From Stentor roeselii (taxonomy: Eukaryota > Ciliophora > Heterotrichea > Heterotrichida > Stentoridae), in assembly GCA_006503475.1 (NCBI GenBank), contig RSEH01000401.1:1-25234 (forward strand): a stretch of DNA of 25,234 nucleotides. The letters run 5' to 3'. Below, in pieces: positions 1 to 25,234 of this stretch. Every line of letters begins with the position of its first letter. The stretch's first letter is position 1. Both the position numbers and the translations under genes were made by a program. The notes below the pieces were generated by a model that ran no database searches, was not told the origin of the DNA, and saw nothing but the letters and a program-made list of their open reading frames with translations.

Positions 1-1788
1 TCTTCAGCTTCATCTTCTTCAGCTTCATCTTCTTCAGCTTCATCTTCTTCAGCTTCATCTTCAGTTGTCTCAGCAACGTCCTCGACTTGATCAGGAACTA
101 AAGCGTTATCTTCTTCTTCAGTTTCATCTTCTTCAGCTTCATCAGCTTCATCTTCTTCATCATCTTCCTCATCATCGTCTTCTTCATCATCGTCTTCTTC
201 AGCTTCGTCTTCTTCAGCTTCATCTTCAGTTGTCTCAGCAACATCCTCGACTTGGTCGGGAACTAAAGCGTTATCTTCTTCTTCAGCTTCATCTTCTTCA
301 GCTTCGTCTTCTTCAGCTTCATCTTCTTCATCATCGTCTTCTTCAGCTTCATCTTCTTCAGCTTCATCTTCTTCAGCTTCATCTTCAGTTGTCTCGGCAA
401 CATCCTCGACTTGATCAGGAACTAAAGCGTTATCTTCTTCTTCAGTTTCATCATCATCTTCTTCAGCTTCGTCTTCTTCAGCTTCATCTTCTTCATCATC
501 GTCTTCTTCAGCTTCGTCTTCTTCAGCTTCGTCTTCTTCAGCTTCATCTTCTTCAGCTTCATCTTCAGTTGTCTCGGCAACATCCTCGACTTGATCAGGA
601 ACTAAAGCGTTATCTTCTTCTTCAGCTTCTTCTTCAGCTTCATCAGCTTCATCTTCCTCATCATCATCTTCTTCATCATCGTCTTCTTCAGCTTCGTCTT
701 CTTCAGCTTCGTCTTCTTCAGCTTCATCTTCTTCAGCTTCATCTTCAGTTGTCTCGGCAACATCCTCGACTTGATCAGGAACTAAAGCGTTATCTTCTTC
801 TTCAGTTTCATCATCATCTTCTTCGGCTTCATCTTCTTCAGCTTCATCGTCTTCTTCAGCTTCATCAGCTTCAGTTTCATCTTCTTCAGCTTCATCTTCT
901 TCCTCAGTTGTCTCAGTAACAGTTTCGACTTGATCAGGAACTAAAGCATTATCTTCTTCTTCAGTTTCATCATCATCTTCTTCGGCTTCATCAGCTTCAT
1001 CGTCTTCTTCGGCTTCATCAGCTTCAGCTTCATCTTCTTCAGTCTCATCTGCATCATCATCTTCTTCTTCAGTTGTCTCAGTAACAGTTTCGACTTGATC
1101 AGGAATTAAAGCGTTATCTTCTTCTTCAGTTTCATCATCGTCTTCTTCAGCTTCATCAGCTTCATCGGCTTCATCAGCTTCATCAGCTTCTTCGGCTTCA
1201 TCTTCTTCAGCTTCATCTTCTTCAGTTTCATCATCATCTTCTTCCTCAGTTGTCTCGGTAACAGCTTCGACTTGATCAGGAACCAAAGCGTTATCTTCTT
1301 CTTCAGTTTCATCATCGTCTCCTTCAGCTTCATCAGCTTCATCAGCTTCATCAGCTTCATCAGCTCCATCAGCTTCAGCTTCAGCTTCAGCTTCATCTTC
1401 TTCAGTTTCATCTTCTTCAGCTTCATCAGCTTCATCTTCTTCAGCTTCATCTTCTTCCTCAGTTGTATCAGTAACAGTTTCGAGTTGATCAGGAACTAAA
1501 GCGTTATCTTCTTCTTCAGTTTCTTCATCGTCTTCTTCAACTTCATCAGCTTCATCGGCTTCATCAGCTTCATCAGCTTCATCAGCTTCATCAGCTTCAC
1601 CAGCTTCATCAGTTTCTTCAGCTTCATCTTCTTCAGTTTCATCTTCTTCCTCAGTTGTCTCAGTAACAGCTTCGACTTGATCAGGAACCAAAGCGTTATC
1701 TTCTTCTTCAGTTTCATCATCATCAGCTTCATCAGCTTCATCGTCTTCTTCAGCTTCATCTTCTTCAGCTTCATCTTCTTCATCTTCT
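1..1788 (-). CDS. Probable continuation of the acidic repeat protein, shifted by one base, running off the left edge
   Basis: Read triplet by triplet on the minus strand, this stretch has no stop for about 596 codons and no Met, so start-based gene finding misses it. It encodes acidic blocks (EDEAEEDEA, EDDDETEEED) separated by ten copies of a spacer close to DNALVPDQVEDVAETTED. It uses only about eleven amino acids (D, E, A, T, N, L, V, P, Q, I, G), with no Lys, Arg, His or aromatic residue seen. The spacer motif is shared with the gene that begins at 2841, and the frame differs by a single base at about 1789. I therefore infer one gene of at least 946 codons, with its C-terminus outside the window. 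Alternatives are a pseudogene tail or a programmed frameshift. Confidence 0.65.
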
Positions 1789-2352
1789 TCATTCATCTTC
1801 TTCAGTTTCATCTGCATCATCATCTTCTTCCTCAGTTGTCTCAGTTTCTTCATTAGTCTCAGTCGTCTCAGCAACAGTTTCCTCAACTTGATCTGGTACC
1901 AAAGTGTTATCTTCTTCTTCCTCCTCTTCTTCTTCTTCTGTTTCAGTTTCTTCTTCCTCCTCTTCAGTTTCTTCTGTTTCAGTTTCTTCAGCTTCTTCAG
2001 TCTCTTCAGCTTCTTCAGTCTCTTCAGCTTCTTCAGTCTCTTCAGTCTCTTCAGCTTCTTCAGTCTCTTCAGTTGTCTCAGTAGTTGTTTCCACAGTTTC
2101 CTCAAGTTGATCTGGTACCAAAGCGTTATCTTCTTCTTCTTCAGTTTCTTCAGCTTCTTCAGTCTCTTCAGTTTCCTGAGTCTCTTCAGCTTCTTCAGTC
2201 TCTTCAGCTTCCTGAGTCTCTTCAGCTTCCTGAGTCTCTTCAGCTTCCTGAGTCTCTTCAGTTTCCTGAGTCTCTTCAGCTTCTTCAGTCTCTTCAGCTT
2301 CCTCAGTTTCCTGAGTCTCTTCTGCTTCCTGAGTCTCTTCAGCCTCTTCAGT
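1..2352 (-). repeat. Tandem repeat array of 159-219 bp units, pyrimidine-rich on the plus strand
   Basis: The spacer motif recurs with its GCT codon at 102, 267, 426, 606, 786, 945, 1110, 1287, 1500, 1692, 1903 and 2122. Distances are 165, 159, 180, 180, 159, 165, 177, 213, 192, 211 and 219. Units around 426, 606 and 786 are near-identical copies at exactly 180 bp, suggesting recent duplication. Inside the units are nested TTCTTCAGC/TTCATC and TTCTTCAGTCTC microsatellite-like blocks. The plus strand is nearly all C and T with scattered AG. Confidence 0.9.
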
Positions 2353-2841
2353 TTCCTCAGTTTCATCAGTCTCGGTTGCATCTGCCACACCACCTAGTAA
2401 TCCGGCGACATTTCCTTCATCTGAGGTCTGCTCTTCATTATTTTCAGTGGTTTCTCCTTCTTCTCCTTCTTCTTCTCCTTCTTCACCTGTTTGAGTTTCC
2501 TCTTCAGTACCTGTTTGAGTTTCCTCTTCAGTGTCTTGTGTTTCCTCATTAGTCTCTTGGCTAGCTGAATTGCTTCCTTCATTAGTTTCTTGAGCATTAG
2601 TTTGGGAGCTAGTTTCAGTTGTTGAGCTGCCATCGGTGCTCGTTTCAGTAGTATCCTCACTGGATTGAACAGTATTTTCATCAGATGTTCCGGTGTCCTG
2701 TGACAAGCCAAGCTCAAGAAATGCTGTTTGATCATCGGTCACTGCAACTTTAATTCCGTTTCTACCTTCTGGGTAGACTTCTGCATTCAAATTAACGATT
2801 TGGGACAGGAGCGTCAAAACGCCTAATACCAAAAATCTCAT
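1789..2841 (-). CDS. Secreted, very acidic Glu/Thr-rich repeat protein, N-terminal part
   Basis: An open frame of 350 aa from the ATG at 2841 to TGA at 1789-1791. An upstream in-frame TTG at 2853 is less likely to be the start. The first 20 residues (MRFLVLGVLTLLSQIVNLNA) form a typical signal peptide, so the protein is probably secreted or delivered to a granule. A short mixed-sequence region of roughly 60 residues follows, then Thr/Glu/Ser-rich sequence, then a tract dominated by EETQEA/EETEEA units. Two copies of a spacer motif, DN(A/T)LVPDQ, occur near 1903 and 2122 and match ten more copies further left. The sequence is almost devoid of Lys, Arg and aromatic residues after the N-terminal third. 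I do not recognise a family. Such a protein could bind calcium or fill a secretory granule or mucus layer, but that is inference. The stop lies inside the repeat and is probably not the true end. Confidence 0.75.
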   Translation of the reverse strand: MRFLVLGVLTLLSQIVNLNAEVYPEGRNGIKVAVTDDQTAFLELGLSQDTGTSDENTVQSSEDTTETSTDGSSTTETSSQTNAQETNEGSNSASQETNEETQDTEEETQTGTEEETQTGEEGEEEGEEGETTENNEEQTSDEGNVAGLLGGVADATETDETEETEEAEETQEAEETQETEEAEETEEAEETQETEETQEAEETQEAEETQEAEETEEAEETQETEETEEAEETEEEEDNALVPDQLEETVETTTETTEETEEAEETEETEEAEETEEAEETEEAEETETEETEEEEEETETEEEEEEEEEDNTLVPDQVEETVAETTETNEETETTEEEDDDADETEEDE

Positions 2842-5603: not shown

Positions 5604-5752
5604 AACTTATGATAACTAAACCTAAAAATCTCTAAAACCCTTAAAATTCCCTAAAACCCCTTTAAAATTCCCTAAAACCCCCTAAAAACCCCATCACTAA
5701 AAACCCCTTCCACCAACACCCATCATCACCAAATTAAAAAATCCGGGCAATA
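5604..5752 (+). promoter_or_regulatory. Short G-free spacer with CCCTAAAA-like runs
   Basis: This is the 149-base gap between two plus-strand genes. It holds several imperfect CCCTAAAA/CCCTTAAAA runs and almost no G. It probably serves as 3' end of one gene and promoter/leader of the next. It is not an exact telomere repeat. Confidence 0.4.
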
Positions 5753-8906: not shown

Positions 8907-9357
8907 TTATTTTAAGTTATCGGTTTTTGGATATGTTGAAGAAATTTAGGGATTTTTAGAAGGTTGGGCATGTTTTTGATGGTTTTATGAGGGTTTTGGA
9001 GGTTTTTTAGAGGAGATGGGATTGATAGGTAGAGGTTGATGGAGATTGAAGAGGTTTGTTAGAGGGTTGGAGGTCGGGAGTTAAGTTTAGTGAAATTTCA
9101 TTTCAAGATGTTAAATTCCGTGCTGAAGAATCTCAATTACATATAAATCAATAATTGTGGATATTCCTATAACCCAACTCTCCATCAACTCTCAAAAACT
9201 CGTTAAAACTCATTCTTTTTCACTCCTAAATCACTTTCCCTCACTTAAAATAATAACCCAAACATCGAATAAACCGCTTTAACTAAATCACCAACCCCTA
9301 AAGCCTTTAAACCCCTAAACCCCCTAAAAATAAATCACTAAAAACCTTTCCAAAAAC
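8907..9357. other. Spacer between TIM16 3' end and the small basic protein gene
   Basis: The right half (about 9170-9357) is C/A-rich on the plus strand, with CCCCTAAA-like runs. The left half (about 8941-9110) is G/T-rich and nearly free of C. The switch lies at about 9110-9170, consistent with a boundary between the 3' region of TIM16 and the promoter/leader of the gene at 8906. No gene was seen. Confidence 0.5.
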
Positions 9358-9686: not shown

Positions 9687-9775
9687 AAATTATGGGCGAT
9701 ATTCGAAAACCTCTGATAAGAAGATCGATGAGGTCAGACACTTTAAACTCAGGAAGCTTTTTCAACTCCTTCATC
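9687..9775. promoter_or_regulatory. Divergent start region between TIM16 and the WD40 channel
   Basis: TIM16 begins at 9686 on the minus strand. The channel's possible starts are 9692 (A-rich context, 5 bases away) and 9776. If the first is used there is essentially no intergenic promoter. If the second, the two genes share about 89 bases. Unlike other 5' flanks it is not G-depleted. Confidence 0.4.
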
Positions 9776-12700
9776 ATGGGACAAGCAGTGAAAAAAAGGA
9801 CAGTCCGGAATAAGGTGAAAGTCGAAGTGACTCCAGAAGAAGCGAAATTGAATTCTTTATTTAAAGAAGCTTCTGACTATATCTTAAAAAACGCTGAAAA
9901 GACGATTTCCACACCTTTTGCTATTAATTGTCTTGCTTTTTCAGAAGATACTGATACTGTCTTGTTTGGCTCGTCGAATGGAAATATTTCTAGATATGAT
10001 TTGAATGAGAATAAAATTGTTGATGATATTCCTTTGAACATTGGAGTTATTCATTCAATTCGTTTAGATGAACATAGCGATATCGCTGTTGTCGTTGGAG
10101 TGGCTCCGAGTGTGAAAGTTTATCGACTTCCTCGATTTGAATTGATTCAAGAGCTGCAAGGTCACACAGGACCAGTGAATCAATGCGAAATTGATTATGT
10201 GAAAGAAATCGTTTATACCATCAGTGATGATGGAACACTTCGCTCTTGGGACCTTGCAGAAATCGAAGAAACTCCTGAGACTGAAGTACTTATTAAACAT
10301 GTAGGACCTGGAAGATGTCTAGCTTTGTCGAATAATGAGAAGTACTTGTTTGGTGGAGGAGATGACTGCTTGATTAGAGTTTTTGACTTGATGATTAAAG
10401 AAGAGGTTTTGAATTTAAAGTCACATTCAGCTGCTGTTGTCAGTTTAACTGTTAATACCGAGTCTAACCTTCTAGCATCTGGAGGGGCTGATTTTTTAGT
10501 CATTGTTTGGAATATCTTGGACTTTACTCCGATGAATGTCTTCAGTGAGCATTCAGGAATTGTTAATACTCTTAGATTTGCTGTTGATCAGAACTTTTTA
10601 GTCTCAGGGTCTGATGATTTCAGCATGCGCGTCTGGGATTTGGATAAGGATCGAAGGGAAATCGTTTTAAATTCACATTCTGCACCTGTTCAAGATCTTC
10701 TCATCACTGGGGATAATGCACTTATTGTTAGCTGCTCTGATGATAAGTCACTTAAAATTTGGACTTTTCCTGAGTTTATGGAAGAAATCAACTTTAAGGT
10801 ACTTAGCAATGATTTTAACTCGATTATTGAAACTAGAGAGGCTATTATCTCTTGTGGAAGTGATCATAAGGTTAGGTTTTGGTTTAGGGAAAAAGATGAA
10901 GCTGGGGTTATACATTCGACTAATGGTGTCGGTCTCAAAGTTTGTGCTTCACTTGATGAAGAATGGCTTGCTGTTAGTGACGATTATGGCTTTCTTTACC
11001 TTATCGCTAATAAGGCACCTTTCCCTGTTATTAAAGAGTTTCAAGCACATAAAGGCTCGATAAGAGACATGTGCTTCATCAAGTCGGGAGAACTGGTTAC
11101 AGGTGGAGGAGACTCTAAAATCCTTATTTGGAATATAGAGACTTGGGATAGCAAACAGCTTAGAGGACATCAACAAAGCATCTGGTGTATTGGGTACACT
11201 CCATTCATAGATCTAGATGCAGATTTTTTAGTATCGGGTAGCAGTGACAAGACAATCCGTATCTGGGACCTAATAAAACTAAACGAAATCTGCAAGTTCC
11301 AAGTTCCAGAGCAAGCGACGGCATTAAGCGTAACGCACGACGGTCGTTACGTGATATCCGGTGGAATAAACGGTACTCTAACAGTATGGAACATCTCCGA
11401 GCGTGTAGAAGAGTCAATATTCACTCTTCACACTGACACAATAACAGGTTTATTCATAACAGAAGACTCATCCAAGATCATGTCAGTATCAAAAGACGCG
11501 AGTATCCAATTCATTTCCCTTGAATACCGAATTCCTCTAAGTTTCTTGACAAGAAAACAGCCAATACTATGCCTTGCTATAACAGAAGACCAAGAAGCGA
11601 TCATAACAGGCGAGCACCAAATGATCTACATGCAAGACAACCCTTTAATCTCTCAAAAGACTCGAATCCTGGGCCCTGAAGACAACGTTCAAAAGTTTCT
11701 AACTTACATGAAAACAATCACTTCAGGACAAATCATTCCACATGACCCGGCAATGGACAAGTTTATCATCGTTCCTTATTTTTTCAACTCACTTCATATT
11801 TACACGTTTTTAGGACTTAGAGAACATCTCACAGCTTCTTTAGTTGAAACCGCTGTCATGATTCCTAGCAAAGAAGGATACCACCCATTGTACATCGCCT
11901 TGCTTAAAGGACTTAAAGGCATACGTGATGATGTAGTCGATTCACTTATTGCACTTGGTGGGAATAACCCTTTTTTATTCCAGATTTTAGAAAATGTGAT
12001 GATTTTAATGAATAAAAAAGCTTTTCCTAAATTAGGAGATCTTTATGAAGCGATTTATCAACCTGCTTTTCGAAGAAGTCTTCCAAAGTTCTGCTCTCCT
12101 GACATACCCTTGCCTATTGTTGTCATTTCTGAACATCCTCGTGTGAGACCTGAGGATTTTTTTGATGCTGAAGAGATGGGGTCTCAAGGGCAGGGTATAC
12201 TTTTTAAAGAGAGTTACGTGAAAATTAGTTATCAAATGGGAAGTAAGGACAGTATCGAGTTTTTAGAAAGTCTTGCAAATTGCACTAATTTGAATGTAAT
12301 GAGAAGTCCATTGATTCAGGCAATGGTTCAGTATAAATGGCAACATGCGAGTTACCCGATGATGATTCAAGGGATTTGCTTTTACTGTTACTTGTTAGTT
12401 CTTAGTCTTTTTACAGCTTTTTTGAATTTTATGTTGACTGAATTGAGGACTATTTCAACTGTTGGGTTGTTTTTCTTGAATAGTTTGCTGCTTTTGTATG
12501 AACTTTTCCAGATGTCAGTTTCAGGGTCGTTTTACTTTACTTATATTTGGAATTATATTGATTGGTGTAGAGGGATCTTGCTTTACTTGTATATCATCAT
12601 CGCTTGGACTGGAAGATTTGAAGAAGGTGCAATGTCTGTGTTATCCTTAGTCATTTTCTTATCATTCTTAAGAGGAATTTCTTATTTCAGGCTTTTTAAG

Positions 12701-13384
12701 ATGACCAGGTACTTAATCAACTTATTATTTCAAGTCGTCGCTGACATTGGAGGCTTTTTGATTTTATTGTCTTATTCAACTCTTTCTTTTTGCTTCTTAT
12801 TCATCGTCCTGGTCAAGTGCAGTGGAACTCCTGAAGAAGTCTTAGAATGTGAAGCAAGTAAAACGTTTTCTTTACAGTTGTTAAGTTCTTATAACTTAGT
12901 CCTTGGAAACCTCGAAGCACAGCCCACTGACTTAGTCGAGTTTTTTTGTGTCACTTTTGCTTTGTTGATCAATCCGATCATCATGTTGAACTTGCTCATC
13001 TCCATCATTGGAGACACTTATGACCGGGTTCAGTCAGACTCCCTTAGCGCAGATATGAAAGAACTCATGGACATGATTCAAGAAGTAGAAAATATGATGT
13101 TTTTCAGAAGAGGACAAAATGGAAAACAATTCTTTCAGGAATGCACTGAATTTGAAAAAACTGACTTGGAAGGAGGATGGGAAGGAAAACTTAGAGCTTT
13201 GCAGGGAATGATTGAAAAAATTGAAGCGAAAAATACTGAACATCATAATCTTTTATTGAAAAAAGTTAGAATGCAGGATAAAGTACTTTCTCTTCAAGCT
13301 GAAAAAATTGATTTGATTGCCAAGTCTATGATTGAGAAAAAACGTGCGATGACTCGGGTGCAAGAAATGAAAGATAAGCGATAG
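9692..13384 (+). CDS. WD40-repeat protein fused to a TRP-like six-TM cation channel
   Basis: A 1230-aa single-exon frame (1202 aa if it starts at 9776, MGQAVKK). Residues about 60-640 hold many WD40 repeats with typical GH...WD spacing (SISDDGTLRSWDL-type blades: LVSGSDDFSMRVWDL, LVSGSSDKTIRIWDL, VISGGINGTLTVWNI), enough for one or two propellers. After a linker, membrane segments lie at about 887-912, 923-943, 951-972, 981-1000 and 1008-1042, then a pore/S6 region at about 1067-1118 ending LNLLISIIGDTYDRVQ, which is the TRP/polycystin-type S6 exit. The C-terminal 100 residues are coiled coil. It probably forms a cation channel in plasma or ciliary membrane, with the propellers as cytosolic interaction modules. 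The ion-transport family assignment is confident; ligand and ion selectivity are unknown. Confidence 0.9.
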   Translation: MGDIRKPLIRRSMRSDTLNSGSFFNSFIMGQAVKKRTVRNKVKVEVTPEEAKLNSLFKEASDYILKNAEKTISTPFAINCLAFSEDTDTVLFGSSNGNISRYDLNENKIVDDIPLNIGVIHSIRLDEHSDIAVVVGVAPSVKVYRLPRFELIQELQGHTGPVNQCEIDYVKEIVYTISDDGTLRSWDLAEIEETPETEVLIKHVGPGRCLALSNNEKYLFGGGDDCLIRVFDLMIKEEVLNLKSHSAAVVSLTVNTESNLLASGGADFLVIVWNILDFTPMNVFSEHSGIVNTLRFAVDQNFLVSGSDDFSMRVWDLDKDRREIVLNSHSAPVQDLLITGDNALIVSCSDDKSLKIWTFPEFMEEINFKVLSNDFNSIIETREAIISCGSDHKVRFWFREKDEAGVIHSTNGVGLKVCASLDEEWLAVSDDYGFLYLIANKAPFPVIKEFQAHKGSIRDMCFIKSGELVTGGGDSKILIWNIETWDSKQLRGHQQSIWCIGYTPFIDLDADFLVSGSSDKTIRIWDLIKLNEICKFQVPEQATALSVTHDGRYVISGGINGTLTVWNISERVEESIFTLHTDTITGLFITEDSSKIMSVSKDASIQFISLEYRIPLSFLTRKQPILCLAITEDQEAIITGEHQMIYMQDNPLISQKTRILGPEDNVQKFLTYMKTITSGQIIPHDPAMDKFIIVPYFFNSLHIYTFLGLREHLTASLVETAVMIPSKEGYHPLYIALLKGLKGIRDDVVDSLIALGGNNPFLFQILENVMILMNKKAFPKLGDLYEAIYQPAFRRSLPKFCSPDIPLPIVVISEHPRVRPEDFFDAEEMGSQGQGILFKESYVKISYQMGSKDSIEFLESLANCTNLNVMRSPLIQAMVQYKWQHASYPMMIQGICFYCYLLVLSLFTAFLNFMLTELRTISTVGLFFLNSLLLLYELFQMSVSGSFYFTYIWNYIDWCRGILLYLYIIIAWTGRFEEGAMSVLSLVIFLSFLRGISYFRLFKMTRYLINLLFQVVADIGGFLILLSYSTLSFCFLFIVLVKCSGTPEEVLECEASKTFSLQLLSSYNLVLGNLEAQPTDLVEFFCVTFALLINPIIMLNLLISIIGDTYDRVQSDSLSADMKELMDMIQEVENMMFFRRGQNGKQFFQECTEFEKTDLEGGWEGKLRALQGMIEKIEAKNTEHHNLLLKKVRMQDKVLSLQAEKIDLIAKSMIEKKRAMTRVQEMKDKR

Positions 13385-18545: not shown

Positions 18546-21500
18546 CTATTTAAATTCAAGACTATGTGGCATAGAGTCACTGGCAAGTATGATTTGAGCT
18601 CGTTTCACAAAATTCAGACTTCTTTCCTTCTCCATTTTCCTCCAAGTCTCTTTCAAACTACTGAAAACCGCAAATAATGAGACAAGAAATTGTCCAGCCA
18701 TTGCAGCAATAACACCAAAAATCACAAATTTTTCAATAAACTGAGCTGAAGACACTTCAATCTTCCACAACAGCGGATAAGTCACAATCATCACAATCAA
18801 AACACAAGCCTCTCCAAAAAGATTCGACCAAAATACTAAAACATCCTTAAAAGGTCGAAACCAGAGTAAAAACCAAAGCGAAACAAAAGATCCTAAAATA
18901 TTCAAAGCGCCCTGCAGATAAAGATTCGAGTTCAAAAAGACTTGCCCTAAAACATAACCTAATCTCCTAAGAAAGTAAAAAAAATAATACTGCGAACTCC
19001 AAAAACCTCTGTCATTTTTAAACTCATCAAAAAGACTTCCCCATTTTTTCTTGAACTCATCTTGACCTTCTTGAATCTCTGAAAGTGAATTGAAAGAAGT
19101 AATGAAAATTATAACAGGAGTTAAAGCGAAAGCTAACTGATTGTTTCTTACAGCTGAGATTGAAGCGAAGAAGAGATTCGTGTAGCCTTCAACTGCCTTT
19201 TTAATTTCCTGTATAGTTCTTACACTTCTGAGTTGAATAATTGCAAAAATTCCGATTTCCAGGTAAAGTTGTATCCAAAACCTAAGAAAAAAACTGTATC
19301 TGTAGTTTTCCAGGATTTTTATAGCTTTTACCGTGATTTTTCCGAGATTAAATCGAGAAAGTAAGTAAAGAAACGGAAAGACCAGAATAACTGCAATTAA
19401 AGTGAGAAGATTTGATCCTAAATTCAATAAAAACACGCAAGTGTCGATTCCGTAATTTCTAGCTTCATAATAAGGCTCAACACAAGAATCTGAGCTTAAA
19501 AGGTATTTGATAGGATTGGGGATAATGTTATACCCTGAAAAGCCTGATAAAAATATTCTGATGTTCTCAGTCATTGGGTTACTGTTCAAGGGAAGGTAAA
19601 TCAGCACCTGGATCATGTTCAGCAAGGCCCAGGCTAATGAAGGATTTAATATTATGGATGAGCAGACTGATGTTGAAACTATTGTTTGGACTACTGCTTT
19701 TGATGAATTTATCAAAACTTCTAATGATGGGTCAATTTTGGGATGGTTAAAGGCTAGCAAATCTCCGGTTAAGGTATTGCTTTGAAGAAGAGAAGAGCTG
19801 AGACTCAGGAACAGTTTTGGTTTTATTAACACTTTTAAACGGGTTCCTTTTTTTACGTCGGTTTTTGGAATGAAAGAGAAGAGAAACTCGACTTGCTCTC
19901 TTTTTATCAGAGTTATTTGGTAGTTTAATGGGCTTTCTATTGAAAAGTCGAAATTGCTCTGGTTAACTGAGACGGGTTCTGAAAAGAGAATCTTGAAATA
20001 AGTACTCGAAAGTACTTGTAAAGATGCATTAAATAGTTTTCTTGTGCATAGATTATCTTTGCCTATATATCCTTCAGCACAAATGCAGTTATAATTATTA
20101 TCAAATATTGCGTTTTTAACACAGATTAAGCATTTTTGTTCACATCTCTCACAATATTCAGGACATTTCGCACATTTAAGATTAAAGTCGTTTGAAGAGT
20201 TGAAAAATCCTTCCTGACATTTGCAAACATGACCACTTGCAACAGCTTTCAAATCTTTACATAAAGTACAGGATTCTTTATCACAAGTCTCGCAGTCGTT
20301 CAGACACTTCTGGCATTTTCCATCATTTCCTTTGATAAAACCTTCAAAACATTCACATCCGCTGGTATATGATGGAAAAGCATTTTCATTTTTGCAGGTT
20401 ACACATAAATCTGCTTGAATACAGTTAAAGCATTCATCATTACACTTCAAACAAGTTCCTTCTTTTAAAATCTGAGTTTTATTAAAGTACCCTTGTTTGC
20501 ATTGACATCCTCCAGAATCAAGCGGGATTGACTGTGAATCCAAACATTGGTCACATATGGCTGATGAAGAACATGACTTGCATTCGACGAAACAAGGTAA
20601 GCAACTTCCATCTGATGATAAACTTGATTTATTGAAAAAGTTTTGTTTGCATACACATCCAAGTGATGAATGAGGTTCTGCATTTAAATCTAAGCAAGAA
20701 TCACAGATTGATGAACTAGAGCATGTTTTACAGTCTGAATAACAAATCTCACAATAACCTCCTGTTTGTAAACTAGTGGAATTAAAGTAGCCTGATAAGC
20801 ATGAACATCCAATGAGGGAACTTGGAATCGCATAGGGATCTTTACAGGTCAAACAAATCAAAGTCTGCGAGCATGAAGAGCATTCATGATAACATTTAAT
20901 GCAGTTAGTTGAATCACTCAAGGGATTTGAATCAAAGTATCCATTTGCACATTTACATCCCATATTATTGATATTCAAGTTTATCTGACAATTGCATCCT
21001 ATTTCATCAGTAGCTTGAAGACAGAGACAAATGATAGAAGTCCCATCAATAGTACAACTTTTATAACTGCAACTATCGCAGTTCAAACAAATCGATCCTT
21101 TACATCCATACAAACAAGAACTCGAGCATGAATTACCTTCACCATTTAATAAATGAGAGTCTTGTGTGGAGATGCAGTATTCAAAGCTGTTTTCTTTAAT
21201 ACCAGGTGAACAAGTTGAAGGACAACTTGGAGCAAGACAATTTCCTACTGAATGGCTAGAAGAGTAAAAATCAGTAAGTGTGACAACTTCTGTGAATAAA
21301 TAAAAACTCCACATCAGGCCATGAAATGATAGAGTTTTATACCCCAAGTAATGATCATAATTCCCAGACTCTGAATAGTGCGAAGATTGAGCTATTGTTA
21401 ATGCAAGAACTCCATTGACGTAAAAGGTTGCTTGGGCTCCTTGGTTTATCATGGCGATAAACGCCCAATTATCTAATTAGATATTACCACTATTTATAGT

Positions 21501-21947
21501 GACTGAAGATGCACCGATTAGGTTATTTGAGTCGTATCCATTTCGACGTATATAGGCACTGATCAAGTTTCCAGTATTAACTCTTGTGATCGCAAACCCA
21601 TATAAATTATAAACTCTGACCAATAAAAAATAGTCACTATCATCCCTAGATTTTATCCATATTATCTGGGAAAATATTGACCCAAGCGATAATGATGAAG
21701 GAACTTTTTCATTTGGAGGAAGCTTTATATATGAATTAAAGCTGCTAGTGAAATAAGCCCCTCGGTCGGTAGGGATTGTATCAGAAGTCGTGGTTGAGAT
21801 ACTCTGGCCATTTTGACCGTGATTGAAGGAACCTGAGTAGTCATAGAAGACCTGACCAAAGTTTATCCCGAACTTGTATTCAACTATCTTGCTGGCTTCA
21901 AAAATCGCCCAGAGAAGATAGACTGTTGAAAAAAATGATGCCTTCAT
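18546..21947 (-). CDS. Receptor-like multi-pass membrane protein with LamG-like and Cys-rich repeats, two exons
   Basis: The exons are 21947-21488 and 21472-18546, giving 1128 aa. It has a signal peptide (MKASFFSTVYLLWAIFEAS). Residues about 25-225 resemble a laminin-G/concanavalin-like lectin fold (INSDNWAFIAMI, ATFYVNGVLALTIA). Cys-rich furin/EGF-like repeats span about 230-630, the last six being tandem units of 46-50 residues with pattern C.xC...C..C....C..C...GC.C..G(Y/F)F. After a linker, a stretch with NPSLAWALLNMIQVLIYLPL begins a C-terminal region of about eight membrane segments, followed by a basic tail (SLKETWRKMEKER). This architecture is common in large ciliate surface-protein families. 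Ligand and function are unknown. A paralogue lies at the right edge. TAG is the stop. Confidence 0.88.
20048..20903 (-). repeat. Six tandem Cys-rich coding repeats (about 150 bp period)
   Basis: Units begin at about 20903, 20753, 20603, 20453, 20315 and 20174 on the minus strand. The first three spacings are exactly 150 bp and later ones 138-141 bp. Each unit holds about eight Cys in the pattern described for the gene, plus the conserved GYFN/GFFN turn. Confidence 0.85.
21473..21487 (-). other. 15-nt intron in the LamG-like domain
   Basis: On the coding strand the sequence is gtaatatctaattag, phase 1. Splicing gives TINSDNWAFIAMI, the usual pre-strand motif of LamG-like domains, and fuses a 153-codon exon to the long second exon. 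Confidence 0.94.
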
Positions 21948-24908
21948 TAAGATAATAGAAATGGTGAAGCCTAAAAATTAAAACATGAAGGAAATTATTT
22001 AATTTCTTAAGAAAATTTTTTATGAACTTCCTGATCTTGATCAAAGACAGTTCATTTAAGATATTACCATGAATATAATGATTTTAGACCTTTCAATATA
22101 GATAAAAATCGTCGGCTGGAATAAGGAAAAAAATAGTTTAAAATTGAATATCCTTGAACTTTGATTACTATTTAATAGCACCTTCTCTTCTAATATTTCA
22201 TTCACTTCGAATTCAATCATGTCTAAATAAAGATGAATAGATTAAAAGAAAAATCCCAAAACCATTAGGTATCTATATCAAATAATGGAACATCGAAGGT
22301 TATAAGAAACTAGTTAATCAGAAAAAAAAATATAAAGTTATTATCAGTTTTTAAAACTACTTCTGGTAGATATATCCTCTACTCTTCATAGATATATCTC
22401 TGGATTATCCCATTATGCAAATTACTGGAATATTCCAGAGTCAGAATAATTGAAATTCAAATATATCTAATTTCACTAAATCGAATATTTTTTCTCACAC
22501 GAATTCAACTAAATTCTTATTAAAGATCAATTTAAGGAAGTCCTTGATTTATCAGCACAAAAATTTCCAGTAGATCATACTGAATTGCTCAAAAAACTAT
22601 CTTCACAATTAATTCTTGATTCCAGTAAAGAAGTTCAACTAAAAAATTTGATCTCCAACTTGAAAATTACTTCAAAACTAAAAAAAAGTCCAAAAATCAT
22701 TCAGTTGCACTAAAATTCATATCTTTATCAAAACAGTATAAATTCCTATTTTTAAGAATTTCTTACAAATATGAGTAATGAGTTCACAATCCATTAAAGG
22801 ATCAACATAGATTTTCCGAACAAGAAAAATTTAAAGATCTTATTGATGAATATAAAGAAATCTATAACAATATGTCCAATAGAATGAAGGACTCTGCAAG
22901 TCAAATATTTTTTTAGTAAGGTGTGCGGCACCTAAAGTTTCGGACAGCTGTGAGTTGTGATAATAAATTTTTCTTGTAGAAGTAGCAGAAGCTGATTGAT
23001 TCGATATTAAAGTACCTTATAATTTATGTTATATTTGAAGGAGATTATATTTATATGGTATTGGAAGATTCCTTGCTATTTTTTAAATAAAAATTACTCT
23101 GGTTATAGGAAAATATAGAAAAGAACCATTGTATTCGTCACCAACTATATAAAATATTAAGACTGACACAAAGATGGATAGCATTATTCAACAATAGCCA
23201 TAATTTAATTGGTCAAACCAATTGTTGAGTAAGACAGAAGTTGATCTATGTCGATAACAATAAATAAAATGGAAAAAGTAATAATCATTCATTTATATCA
23301 ATATAATCGACTTTAAATATAACTATAAATTTTTAATGTTTTTTAGAGATTTAATATTTTCATTTTTATTTCAACTTGTTTTTCAATAGGGGAAGTACTG
23401 CAACCTATCTGGACATACTACTTGTTTATAATGCAACATATATAGCAGAGGCAAATCCCATTTTTCGGGAAGATTGTTTTCATTATTACAAGTGATAAAT
23501 ATTCATCAATCTGAAAACTAACCTATCTCTTAGAAGGTCCCTATTTAAATGGAAAGATTCTTATCTATTTAATAATGAAATTAATGTTTGATATAATTTA
23601 TTGGCATATTCTTAAGTATAATTATAAATTATGATTCATCAAGCCGTATCTAAAGCTTGAGAACAAAGGGAAGTCAAATAGGTTTTGTGAATTCTTTGGA
23701 TTTGTATTATCTATCTTATTGTTTTTCTGATTAGATTGAATATTATCTAAAAATCAATCTTTATCAATTTCCAAAAATTATTATCAGGTGATTTTGTGAT
23801 ATTAATTATTAGAAAGGTAAGGGAGTAGTTTTTAGTTGGGTAAAGGATAAGTAAGTGTTAGTAATTAATTTTTGAAGATTTTATGTTTTGCTTCACCTTG
23901 TTGAAGTTTAAAGTATTAAAATGTTAGTGATGCTAAAGTATATGCATATCTGACTTTATATTTACACATCTTAAAAGCTCTTAAGTTTTGAATATATTTT
24001 TAAATAATTATAATAAAACAACTCTGTACTAAGGTGAATTTGAATTCTATCAAGATCATTAATTATATCTAAATATTCATTAATGAATAACTTTATATTC
24101 ATATCCTAAACTACTTTAACTATAATTTAAGCATATCTAATATATCCTAGATTTTTCGATACAAAATTAAACAAAAAACAACATACATAAAGATCAATTA
24201 AAAGCCGAAAAAAATTGTAAAACAACTGTAATAAATTTCACAATCTTAAAAACTAAATATAAACTTATTGCTAAAATCCAACTAGGCAAATTTCAATCAT
24301 AATATTGAAGACTATGACAGATTTCAGTTTTTGGTCTGAAAATCATGAAATATTTAAAGTTAAACTAGATGTTAAGAAGAAAAACTTTGAGCTAGTTTTA
24401 AATGCCTAATTGACATCAAACTAATAGAAAAATAAATCTTAGAATTTCTAACTAACTATCTCAATTTAAACTCTTCTCTGTATCTGAAATGATATCCCAA
24501 ATTAAATAATCAATTATAAGGCTTATGATAAAATAGAGTGTATGAAAGAAATAATATAAAATTCTTTGTAGTTGTAGCCTGGAACTTCTTCATCTTGGGT
24601 ATAGCCAGATACTAAACATCTTCTATGAATAAGTGAGAACTATAGCATCAATTCTAGTACCACTATTGAAATTTTCGAATTTTTAGTGTATTAAATTCAC
24701 GATTTACCTTGAAGATATCTTAGATTCTAAATAATTGTTAACTTTTTCTGGCTGATTAATTCATAATTATTATACATTTCATTGAGAAAATCTTGATAAT
24801 ATAAGTTATTTTTGTTGAATAATTGAAATTGCCTATACATATTCGGCTTTCGGTCGATTTCTGTTTTATTCATATTCACACTACTAGTTAAATACTAAAA
24901 CCTCAGAA
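21948..24908. other. 2.96 kb AT-rich gap between paralogues
   Basis: No complete gene can be supported. Composition is uniformly AT-rich, without the strong G- or C-depletion seen in other spacers. Short protein-like open patches occur on the plus strand (22513-22713, 22782-22916, 22992-23090) and on the minus strand (24727-24873 and about 24484-24622). These may be decayed gene pieces or chance (see findings). No terminal inverted repeats, transposase or RNA gene were recognised. Confidence 0.6.
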
Positions 24909-25234
24909 TTAATTAAAACCTATAGTTTTTTTAGCCCTGTTAACAAAGGCTAAACTTCTCTTTTTATCCAGTTTCCTCCATATTTCCAGTAAACTTCTAA
25001 AAAAAACAAACAAAGTCACTATAAACTGTGCACTTATTACAGTAATCACACCAAAAATCACAAACTTTTCAATAAAAAGTGCTGCATTTTCCTCAAAGTT
25101 CCACAAAAAAGTATAAGTCACAATAAAAACAACTAAAATACAAACCTCTCCTAAAAGATTCGAAACAAAAACCGGAAAATCTTTAAAAGGTCGAAACCAG
25201 ATTAAAAACAAAAACGAAATCAAAGATCCTAAAA
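24909..25234 (-). CDS. Paralogue of the Cys-rich multi-pass membrane protein, C-terminal end only
   Basis: The frame is open from the right edge to TAA at 24909-24911 (108 residues visible). It aligns without gaps to the end of the neighbouring 1128-aa protein. About 63 of 102 positions are identical by eye, including ILGS, WFRPFKD, SNL.GE.C, IEKFVIFGVI and the tail WRK...RSL.FV.RA. Two to three C-terminal membrane segments are present. The paralogue's C-terminal tail is shorter by several residues. It is on the same strand, so this is a tandem duplication, and the N-terminal domains lie beyond the window. Confidence 0.92.
   Translation of the reverse strand, partial: LGSLISFLFLIWFRPFKDFPVFVSNLLGEVCILVVFIVTYTFLWNFEENAALFIEKFVIFGVITVISAQFIVTLFVFFRSLLEIWRKLDKKRSLAFVNRAKKTIGFN

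Follow-up and report, generated by a model that had tools for sequence, protein, structure and literature searches.

A Cys-containing module shared by acidic, mucin-like and coiled-coil-like proteins of Stentor roeselii, and a possible secreted polyanionic matrix

The window analysed here is the entire contig RSEH01000401.1 (C348; 25,234 nucleotides) of the heterotrich ciliate Stentor roeselii, which carries at its left end, on the minus strand, a gene for an extremely acidic protein with regularly repeated DNALVPDQ spacers. This window gene was compared with the complete genome assembly (44.4 Mb, 522 contigs), the other contigs of which are denoted by labels such as C347, C395 and C517. As judged from the sequences, a fixed Cys module, C-x-x-G-x-C, together with bodies that vary from near-pure acid, E/N/R-rich or poly-DE to S/T/N-rich mucin-like or heptad-containing, defines a protein family in this genome. 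The best reading is that of a family of polyanionic matrix proteins that has a module of its own and would work like ciliate granule cargo or mucins but would be built differently. The window gene is organized as follows.

1..2841, minus strand: acidic protein gene, starting (5') at 2841 and truncated on its 3' side by the contig edge, with a frame break at 1789-1791
2782..2841, minus strand: signal-peptide-like start of 20 codons, MRFLVLGVLTLLSQIVNLNA, cleavage site placed by eye, aligned with four paralogues
2698..2781, minus strand: conserved mature N-terminal motif EVYPEGRNGIKVAV...FLELG, common to the window gene, C347a, C347b, C347c and C517
2131..2697, minus strand: T/S/E/Q-rich and then TEEAEETQ-repeat acidic region, upstream of spacer 1
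2107..2130, minus strand: spacer 1, DNALVPDQ
1888..1911, minus strand: spacer 2, DNTLVPDQ
1789..1791, minus strand: TGA closing frame 0, with the acidic reading one base further (assembly error or mutation)
1677..1700, minus strand: spacer 3, DNALVPDQ
1485..1508, minus strand: spacer 4, DNALVPDQ
1272..1295, minus strand: spacer 5, DNALVPDQ
1095..1118, minus strand: spacer 6, DNALIPDQ
930..953, minus strand: spacer 7, DNALVPDQ
771..794, minus strand: spacer 8, DNALVPDQ
591..614, minus strand: spacer 9, DNALVPDQ
411..434, minus strand: spacer 10, DNALVPDQ
252..275, minus strand: spacer 11, DNALVPDQ
87..110, minus strand: spacer 12, DNALVPDQ, after which the gene continues to the contig end

The window gene is incomplete, since position 1 is the contig end and the repeat sits there. 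It has 947 visible codons (350 and 597 on the two sides of the frame break), 547 of which encode D or E, and K or R is found solely at residues 2, 27 and 31. In the first 350 residues T occurs 69 times and S 14 times. K, R, H, F, W, Y, M, C and S are all absent from the last 597, which are made up of E (252), D (142), A (86), T (42), V (29), N (11), L (11), P (10), Q (10), G (3) and I (1); these are the residue types that a preliminary description of the same DNA had given for the left 596 codons. An N-glycosylation sequon (N-sequon) was found in neither part. The secreted start that had been claimed agrees with the signal-peptide-like sequence at 2841 on the minus strand, which was judged by eye and by paralogue alignment rather than with a predictor; the protein would thus enter the secretory path.

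The single open frame of at least 946 codons that had been described does not exist in the assembled sequence: frame 0, read from the Met at 2841, ends after 350 codons at the TGA of 1789-1791, and the acidic reading, shifted by one base, then runs stop-free for 597 codons to the contig end. A short intron was ruled out as the cause: for up to 60 bases around the stop the sequence contains no GT, and the stop is enclosed by no GT...AG stretch of 13-59 nt. Reading UGA as tryptophan is not favoured either, given that 42 long open reading frames (ORFs) in 155 kb of fetched sequence end with 23 TAA, 16 TAG and 3 TGA. The three TGA cases are the window frame break and two ORFs of C320, and the next in-frame stop follows 0-2 codons behind. 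TGA hence seems to be a rare stop in this genome, in contrast to Blepharisma, which according to passages of its genome report reads UGA as tryptophan (PMC9942806). Intact paralogues show no frame break like that of the window gene, which bears on the idea of a programmed +1 frameshift.

Regular blocks of 53-73 residues separated by one conserved spacer had been proposed, and this is borne out by 12 spacers (10 DNALVPDQ, one DNTLVPDQ and one DNALIPDQ) at intervals of 73, 71, 64, 71, 59, 55, 53, 60, 60, 53 and 55 residues, the interval across the frame break being measured with both frame pieces laid side by side. All pairs of the 12 eight-codon cores together show 103 synonymous and 22 non-synonymous differences, with a ratio of non-synonymous to synonymous proportions (pN/pS) of 0.056; when flanks are included (14 codons) these numbers become 172 and 119 with pN/pS 0.154. 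Since synonymous differences dominate, the spacers are conserved as protein sequence, beyond chance. The copies nearer the contig end are almost identical in DNA, hence recent duplication or conversion also contributes. A degenerate 24-base DNALVPDQ pattern, which does not cover the two variants among the 12, has 10 matches genome-wide, all of them in the window gene.

C347 opens, at 1-429 of its plus strand, inside a 142-codon open frame that reads AETTEEEAEEDEAEEDEAEEDDDEEDDDEED... and ends ETVDVQVECIDGECSAVLLQENDNHFEFRVNLKAVDAN-stop; its repeat matches that of the window gene and it holds an apparent degenerate spacer, EDTMVDQVEEE. Because the repeat is common to both contigs and the spacer pattern is found in no other gene, we infer that reversed C348 joins C347, and C347:1-429 would very probably be the C-terminus of the window gene.

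A search of the genome contigs with the N-terminal 157 residues of the window protein identified four paralogues.

C347:24327: N-terminal paralogue match, E 1.6e-13
C347:8033: N-terminal paralogue match, E 7.8e-12
C347:2440: N-terminal paralogue match, E 7.7e-9
C517:15027: N-terminal paralogue match, E 4.1e-8

A fifth match, on C33 (E 0.86), was too weak to be counted as a member. Weak matches from other searches, on C349 (E 0.75), C320 (E 0.09) and C344 (E 0.46), were not counted either, and inspection of the C320 and C344 loci by eye revealed no module. C347a is an intact ORF of 1398 residues with 53% D/E and E/S/N/R repeats. C347b (4442 residues, intact) has ESSESVSENTT-type repeats followed by LGPEILNQ..IPPLIPGPLP repeats, 30% S/T and 187 N-sequons in all, and C517 (2094 residues, intact) has 44% S/T and 74 N-sequons. 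C347c leaves its contig after 321 codons and C395:18410-16593 (minus strand) has a matching C-terminal part of 606 codons, so both probably belong to one gene. The gene that follows on C395, C395b, encodes an intact poly-DE protein of 596 residues with a signal-peptide-like start. The four intact ORFs are all acidic. The four genes on C347 (the end of the window gene, a, b and c) lie in the same direction, as do the two on C395, and the order reversed C348, C347, reversed C395 would give five co-oriented genes headed by the window gene.

The N-terminal motif VYPEGR..I..AV...LVELG occurs in five aligned genes including the window gene, all of which were picked because they were search matches. 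N-terminal motif searches gave no match in C395b or in eight genes outside the cluster, hence the motif marks a subgroup; the N-terminus of C395b as query found itself alone, and a likeness between PKGRGLIKDAALV and PEGRNGIKDAV was noted by eye. Both ends are constrained. For the C-terminal piece of 46 codons, non-synonymous divergence (dN) is lower than synonymous divergence (dS) in 10 of 10 pairs, with dS saturated in two, examples being dN/dS values of 0.027/0.458 for C347b and C517 and 0.246/0.935 for the window gene and C347a. For the N-terminal 48 codons this applies to nine of 10 pairs, the four that involve the window gene having values of 0.410/0.494, 0.291/0.707, 0.275/0.634 and 0.412/0.381.

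The module, [VI]x[VI]xC-x-[DN]-G-x-C in full, is present in all six cluster-type genes with a visible C-terminal part. It lies 23-24 residues from the C-terminal end in the window gene (via C347:1-429), C347a and C395b, and 163-188 residues from it in C347b, C517 and C395a. Eight further acidic or S/T-rich proteins (C99, C153, C30, C391, C91, C94, C180 and C40) carry it as well, which brings the number to at least 14 genes, a lower bound since the genome searches score best candidates only. C99 has 117 residues and consists almost entirely of a signal-peptide-like start plus the module; C153 is a G/S/T-rich protein of 374 residues; and C30 has acidic EEEVVEDGGET repeats, its gene being cut by the contig end with the start outside view. 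In C391, C91, C94, C180 and C40 the module lies close to the N-terminus; C391, C91, C180 and C40 were read in part, and the start of C91 is by eye a weak signal peptide. The 14-row alignment of the module has three invariant columns, C, G and C, and the two cysteines may form a disulphide.

Direct searches tie the cluster to C99 weakly (E 0.0101 and 0.0125), for which reason profiles with hand-chosen domain edges were tested against 4,214 shuffled or reversed decoys. With the profile of C99, C153 and C30, all 11 other members scored above the best decoy (9.5 bits), the window C-terminus on C347:1-429 reaching 32.9 and the lowest member, C40, 15.5. With the cluster profile all eight others outscored the best decoy, the weakest by a narrow margin (12.5 versus 12.4). 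With the profile of the group with N-terminal modules seven of nine others did so (best decoy 14.4), the window gene again barely (14.6), and C347b and C517 were missed. Comparison of the groups by hhalign gave 97.7% for the C99 group and the cluster, 93.8% for the N-terminal group and the cluster, and 97.6% for the C99 group and the N-terminal group.

The bodies differ in periodicity. In C391 and C91 hydrophobic residues follow 3/4 spacing in 0.83 and 0.68 of the gaps versus a shuffled mean of 0.24, which is a coiled-coil-like heptad pattern, and both are candidates for granule proteins of an acidic coiled-coil type. Extended heptad repeats of S/E type (LESELSS) were seen at C391:159502-160623 (minus strand) and C91:118655-120498 (plus strand) in open frames of 2264 and 732 codons, and C180 and C40 resemble these heptad proteins by eye. 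No heptad spacing was found in C94, C347a, the first part of C347b, C517 or C395b, and C153 offers three gaps only. The proline-rich part of C347b yields 0.33 versus a shuffled mean of 0.25 and maximum of 0.31, without 3-4 alternation. Heptads are likewise absent from the 597-residue part of the window protein, whose short hydrophobic gaps (1, 3 and 4; 10 each) fit the ten spacers alone.

That no named family has this build, as the preliminary description stated, is in line with database searches that covered some pieces only. At E 0.001 the first 350 residues of the window protein matched nothing in Pfam, and eight family pieces scanned at E up to 1 gave only two unrelated chance-level matches (E 0.18 and 0.32). 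In PDB no match at E up to 1 was found for C99 and none for the 14-row module profile. Among prokaryotes, 57 pattern matches were obtained with C99, the single member tried, and none was confirmed by tblastn in GTDB contigs. Literature searches retrieved no paper evidently on such proteins, which is a weak negative given that they did not reach the Stentor genome paper or much of the subscription literature.

Among known systems, passages of the ciliate literature describe granule cargo as acidic, aggregating and binding calcium with low affinity (PMC4978903) and granule lattice (Grl) proteins, those of Tetrahymena mucocysts, as acidic, Ca2+-binding and predicted to form coiled coils (PMC6189453). 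The window protein resembles Grl and Paramecium trichocyst matrix proteins, as described there, in acidity, signal-peptide-like start and ciliate lineage, and its module-bearing relatives C391 and C91 share the heptad bodies; set against these descriptions rather than against Grl sequences, it is unlike Grl in its Cys module, its very repetitive and acidic body and the lack of heptads in the part tested. The relatives C347b and C517 are like secreted gel-forming or large mucins in their long S/T-rich repeats of the glycosylation type, many N-sequons, signal-peptide-like start and Cys module near the C-terminus. Such repeats were not found in the window gene, which differs from mucins by carrying charge in its side chains and by having no N-sequon and, in the 597-residue part, no S besides its 42 T; mucin-type domains (VWD, CK and the like) were not found by Pfam in the pieces scanned. 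Acidic biomineral matrix proteins of the aspein/asprich type are also secreted and have D/E-rich repeats.

We give about an even chance to the proposal that the window protein and its family form an extrusome-type or mucus-type polyanion matrix condensed by Ca2+, because of the signal-peptide-like start, the Cys module, the polyanionic or glycosylatable body and the published descriptions of granule cargo. The protein would comprise a signal peptide, a short N-terminal motif, some 900 visible residues of D/E-rich repeats with DNALVPDQ stickers and, through the proposed join, a C-terminal Cys module. Its body is probably a disordered polyanion, which Ca2+ would neutralise and condense in the secretory path so that it could be packed into a dense granule, either a cortical extrusome or mucocyst-like, with hydrophobic spacers and Cys modules serving as cross-links or sorting tags. 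Upon release, Ca2+ would be exchanged and the polyanion would swell to a gel, coat or adhesive. Passages on the heterotrich Stentor polymorphus report extrusive cortical granules of ~0.5-1 um (PMC9774955), and for several protist extrusomes including Tetrahymena mucocysts a staining by Alcian blue is noted that has been interpreted as acid mucopolysaccharide (PMC12811490). More speculatively, the Cys-hairpin module may be an address and condensation tag that loads any polyanion (poly-acid, mucin-like or coiled coil) into the same granule, the window protein using Asp/Glu in place of sugar acids and DNALVPDQ, as a regularly placed hydrophobic sticker or a site of processing, determining the gel mesh.

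The secreted polyanionic matrix of the preliminary description thus survives as best reading and is strengthened by the cluster, since the paralogues are large mucin-like and acidic proteins that look secreted and have their ends in common; the regular spacer, on the other hand, is peculiar to the window gene. Several observations weigh against it. As its pattern matches are confined to the window gene, the DNALVPDQ spacer is a trait of that gene and not a family rule. N-terminal dN is not lower than dS for the window gene versus C517 (0.412/0.381; one of 10 pairs). Pfam scans of the pieces gave no granule, mucin or Ca2+-store model. The window protein, having no heptads and few S/T in the part tested, resembles neither Grl nor mucin closely, and the break at 1789-1791 may mean that the window copy is broken.

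A structural coat secreted constitutively rather than through regulated granules, be it a lorica, a holdfast glue, a glycocalyx or a polymer of the cyst wall, is the alternative that survives best, although we consider it unlikely: the two giant paralogues rich in S, T and N, whose N-sequons number 187 and 74, resemble secreted coat mucins, and the holdfast of S. polymorphus is described in passages of the same report as secreting a sticky substance (PMC9774955), whereas the heptad relatives, which carry the module too, bear a closer resemblance to granule cargo. A luminal Ca2+ store of the endoplasmic reticulum or alveolar sacs that serves contraction is clearly less probable. Dense D/E behind a signal-peptide-like start is indeed shared with calsequestrin and the calreticulin C-domain, but these lack the spacer repeats and gave no Pfam match in the pieces scanned, and the store would fit poorly with mucin-like paralogues bearing the same ends; moreover a resident reticulum protein is disfavoured because none of the 10 C-termini seen is KDEL/HDEL-like. 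Slightly less probable still is that the family is real and the window gene makes nothing, being a decaying pseudogene or, at the contig edge, a misassembled repeat. The one-base break and the repeat at the contig end would fit this, yet the 597 codons past the break keep one stop-free frame and hold 10 of the 12 constrained spacers, and assemblies commonly err by one indel within long repeats. That the open frames are a by-product of GAA/GAT repeats in low-complexity DNA without a protein is very improbable, since although plus-strand frames over the repeat are open too (305, 238 and 155 residues), the signal-peptide-like start, the paralogous ends, the low spacer pN/pS and the intact paralogue of 4442 codons speak for a protein.

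Elsewhere in the window, putative 15-nt GT...AG introns with in-frame stops were noted by eye in two genes, GTAATATCTAATTAG (minus strand, ~21477) and GTAAAATTTATTCAG (plus strand, ~16416). Three units of CCCTAACA have 547 overlapping matches in the genome versus 0 for the reversed control and, among the matches listed, lie at the starts of C26, C40, C48, C56 and C70 and the end of C40. According to passages on the Blepharisma genome, most introns there are 15 or 16 bp long and the telomeric repeat unit is CCCTAACA (PMC9942806). Short CCTAAA-like arrays at 5621-5692 and 9293-9328, within the contig, are different from this telomere unit. A 1231-codon ORF at 9689-13384 (plus strand) has many WD40 repeats (Pfam) and a C-terminal multi-pass stretch which resembles by eye long membrane ORFs on C344 and C517. 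To the eye this C-terminus also resembles a channel of the TRP/polycystin type. At 18546-21977 (minus strand) a large protein is encoded that combines Cys-rich repeats with a multi-pass C-terminus. Its end is present a second time at 24909-25232 (minus strand), where the right edge cuts it; C395:7152-10916 (minus strand), beside the acidic cluster, is by eye a relative of this protein.

Heterotrich extrusome or mucus matrix proteins did not turn up in the literature searches, and the family would supply named candidates for them. If a fixed module with freely varying polyanionic bodies is indeed what this family represents, C-x-x-G-x-C would be a handle for sorting studies, and the poly-acid, mucin-like and coiled-coil answers to one packing problem could be compared within one genome.

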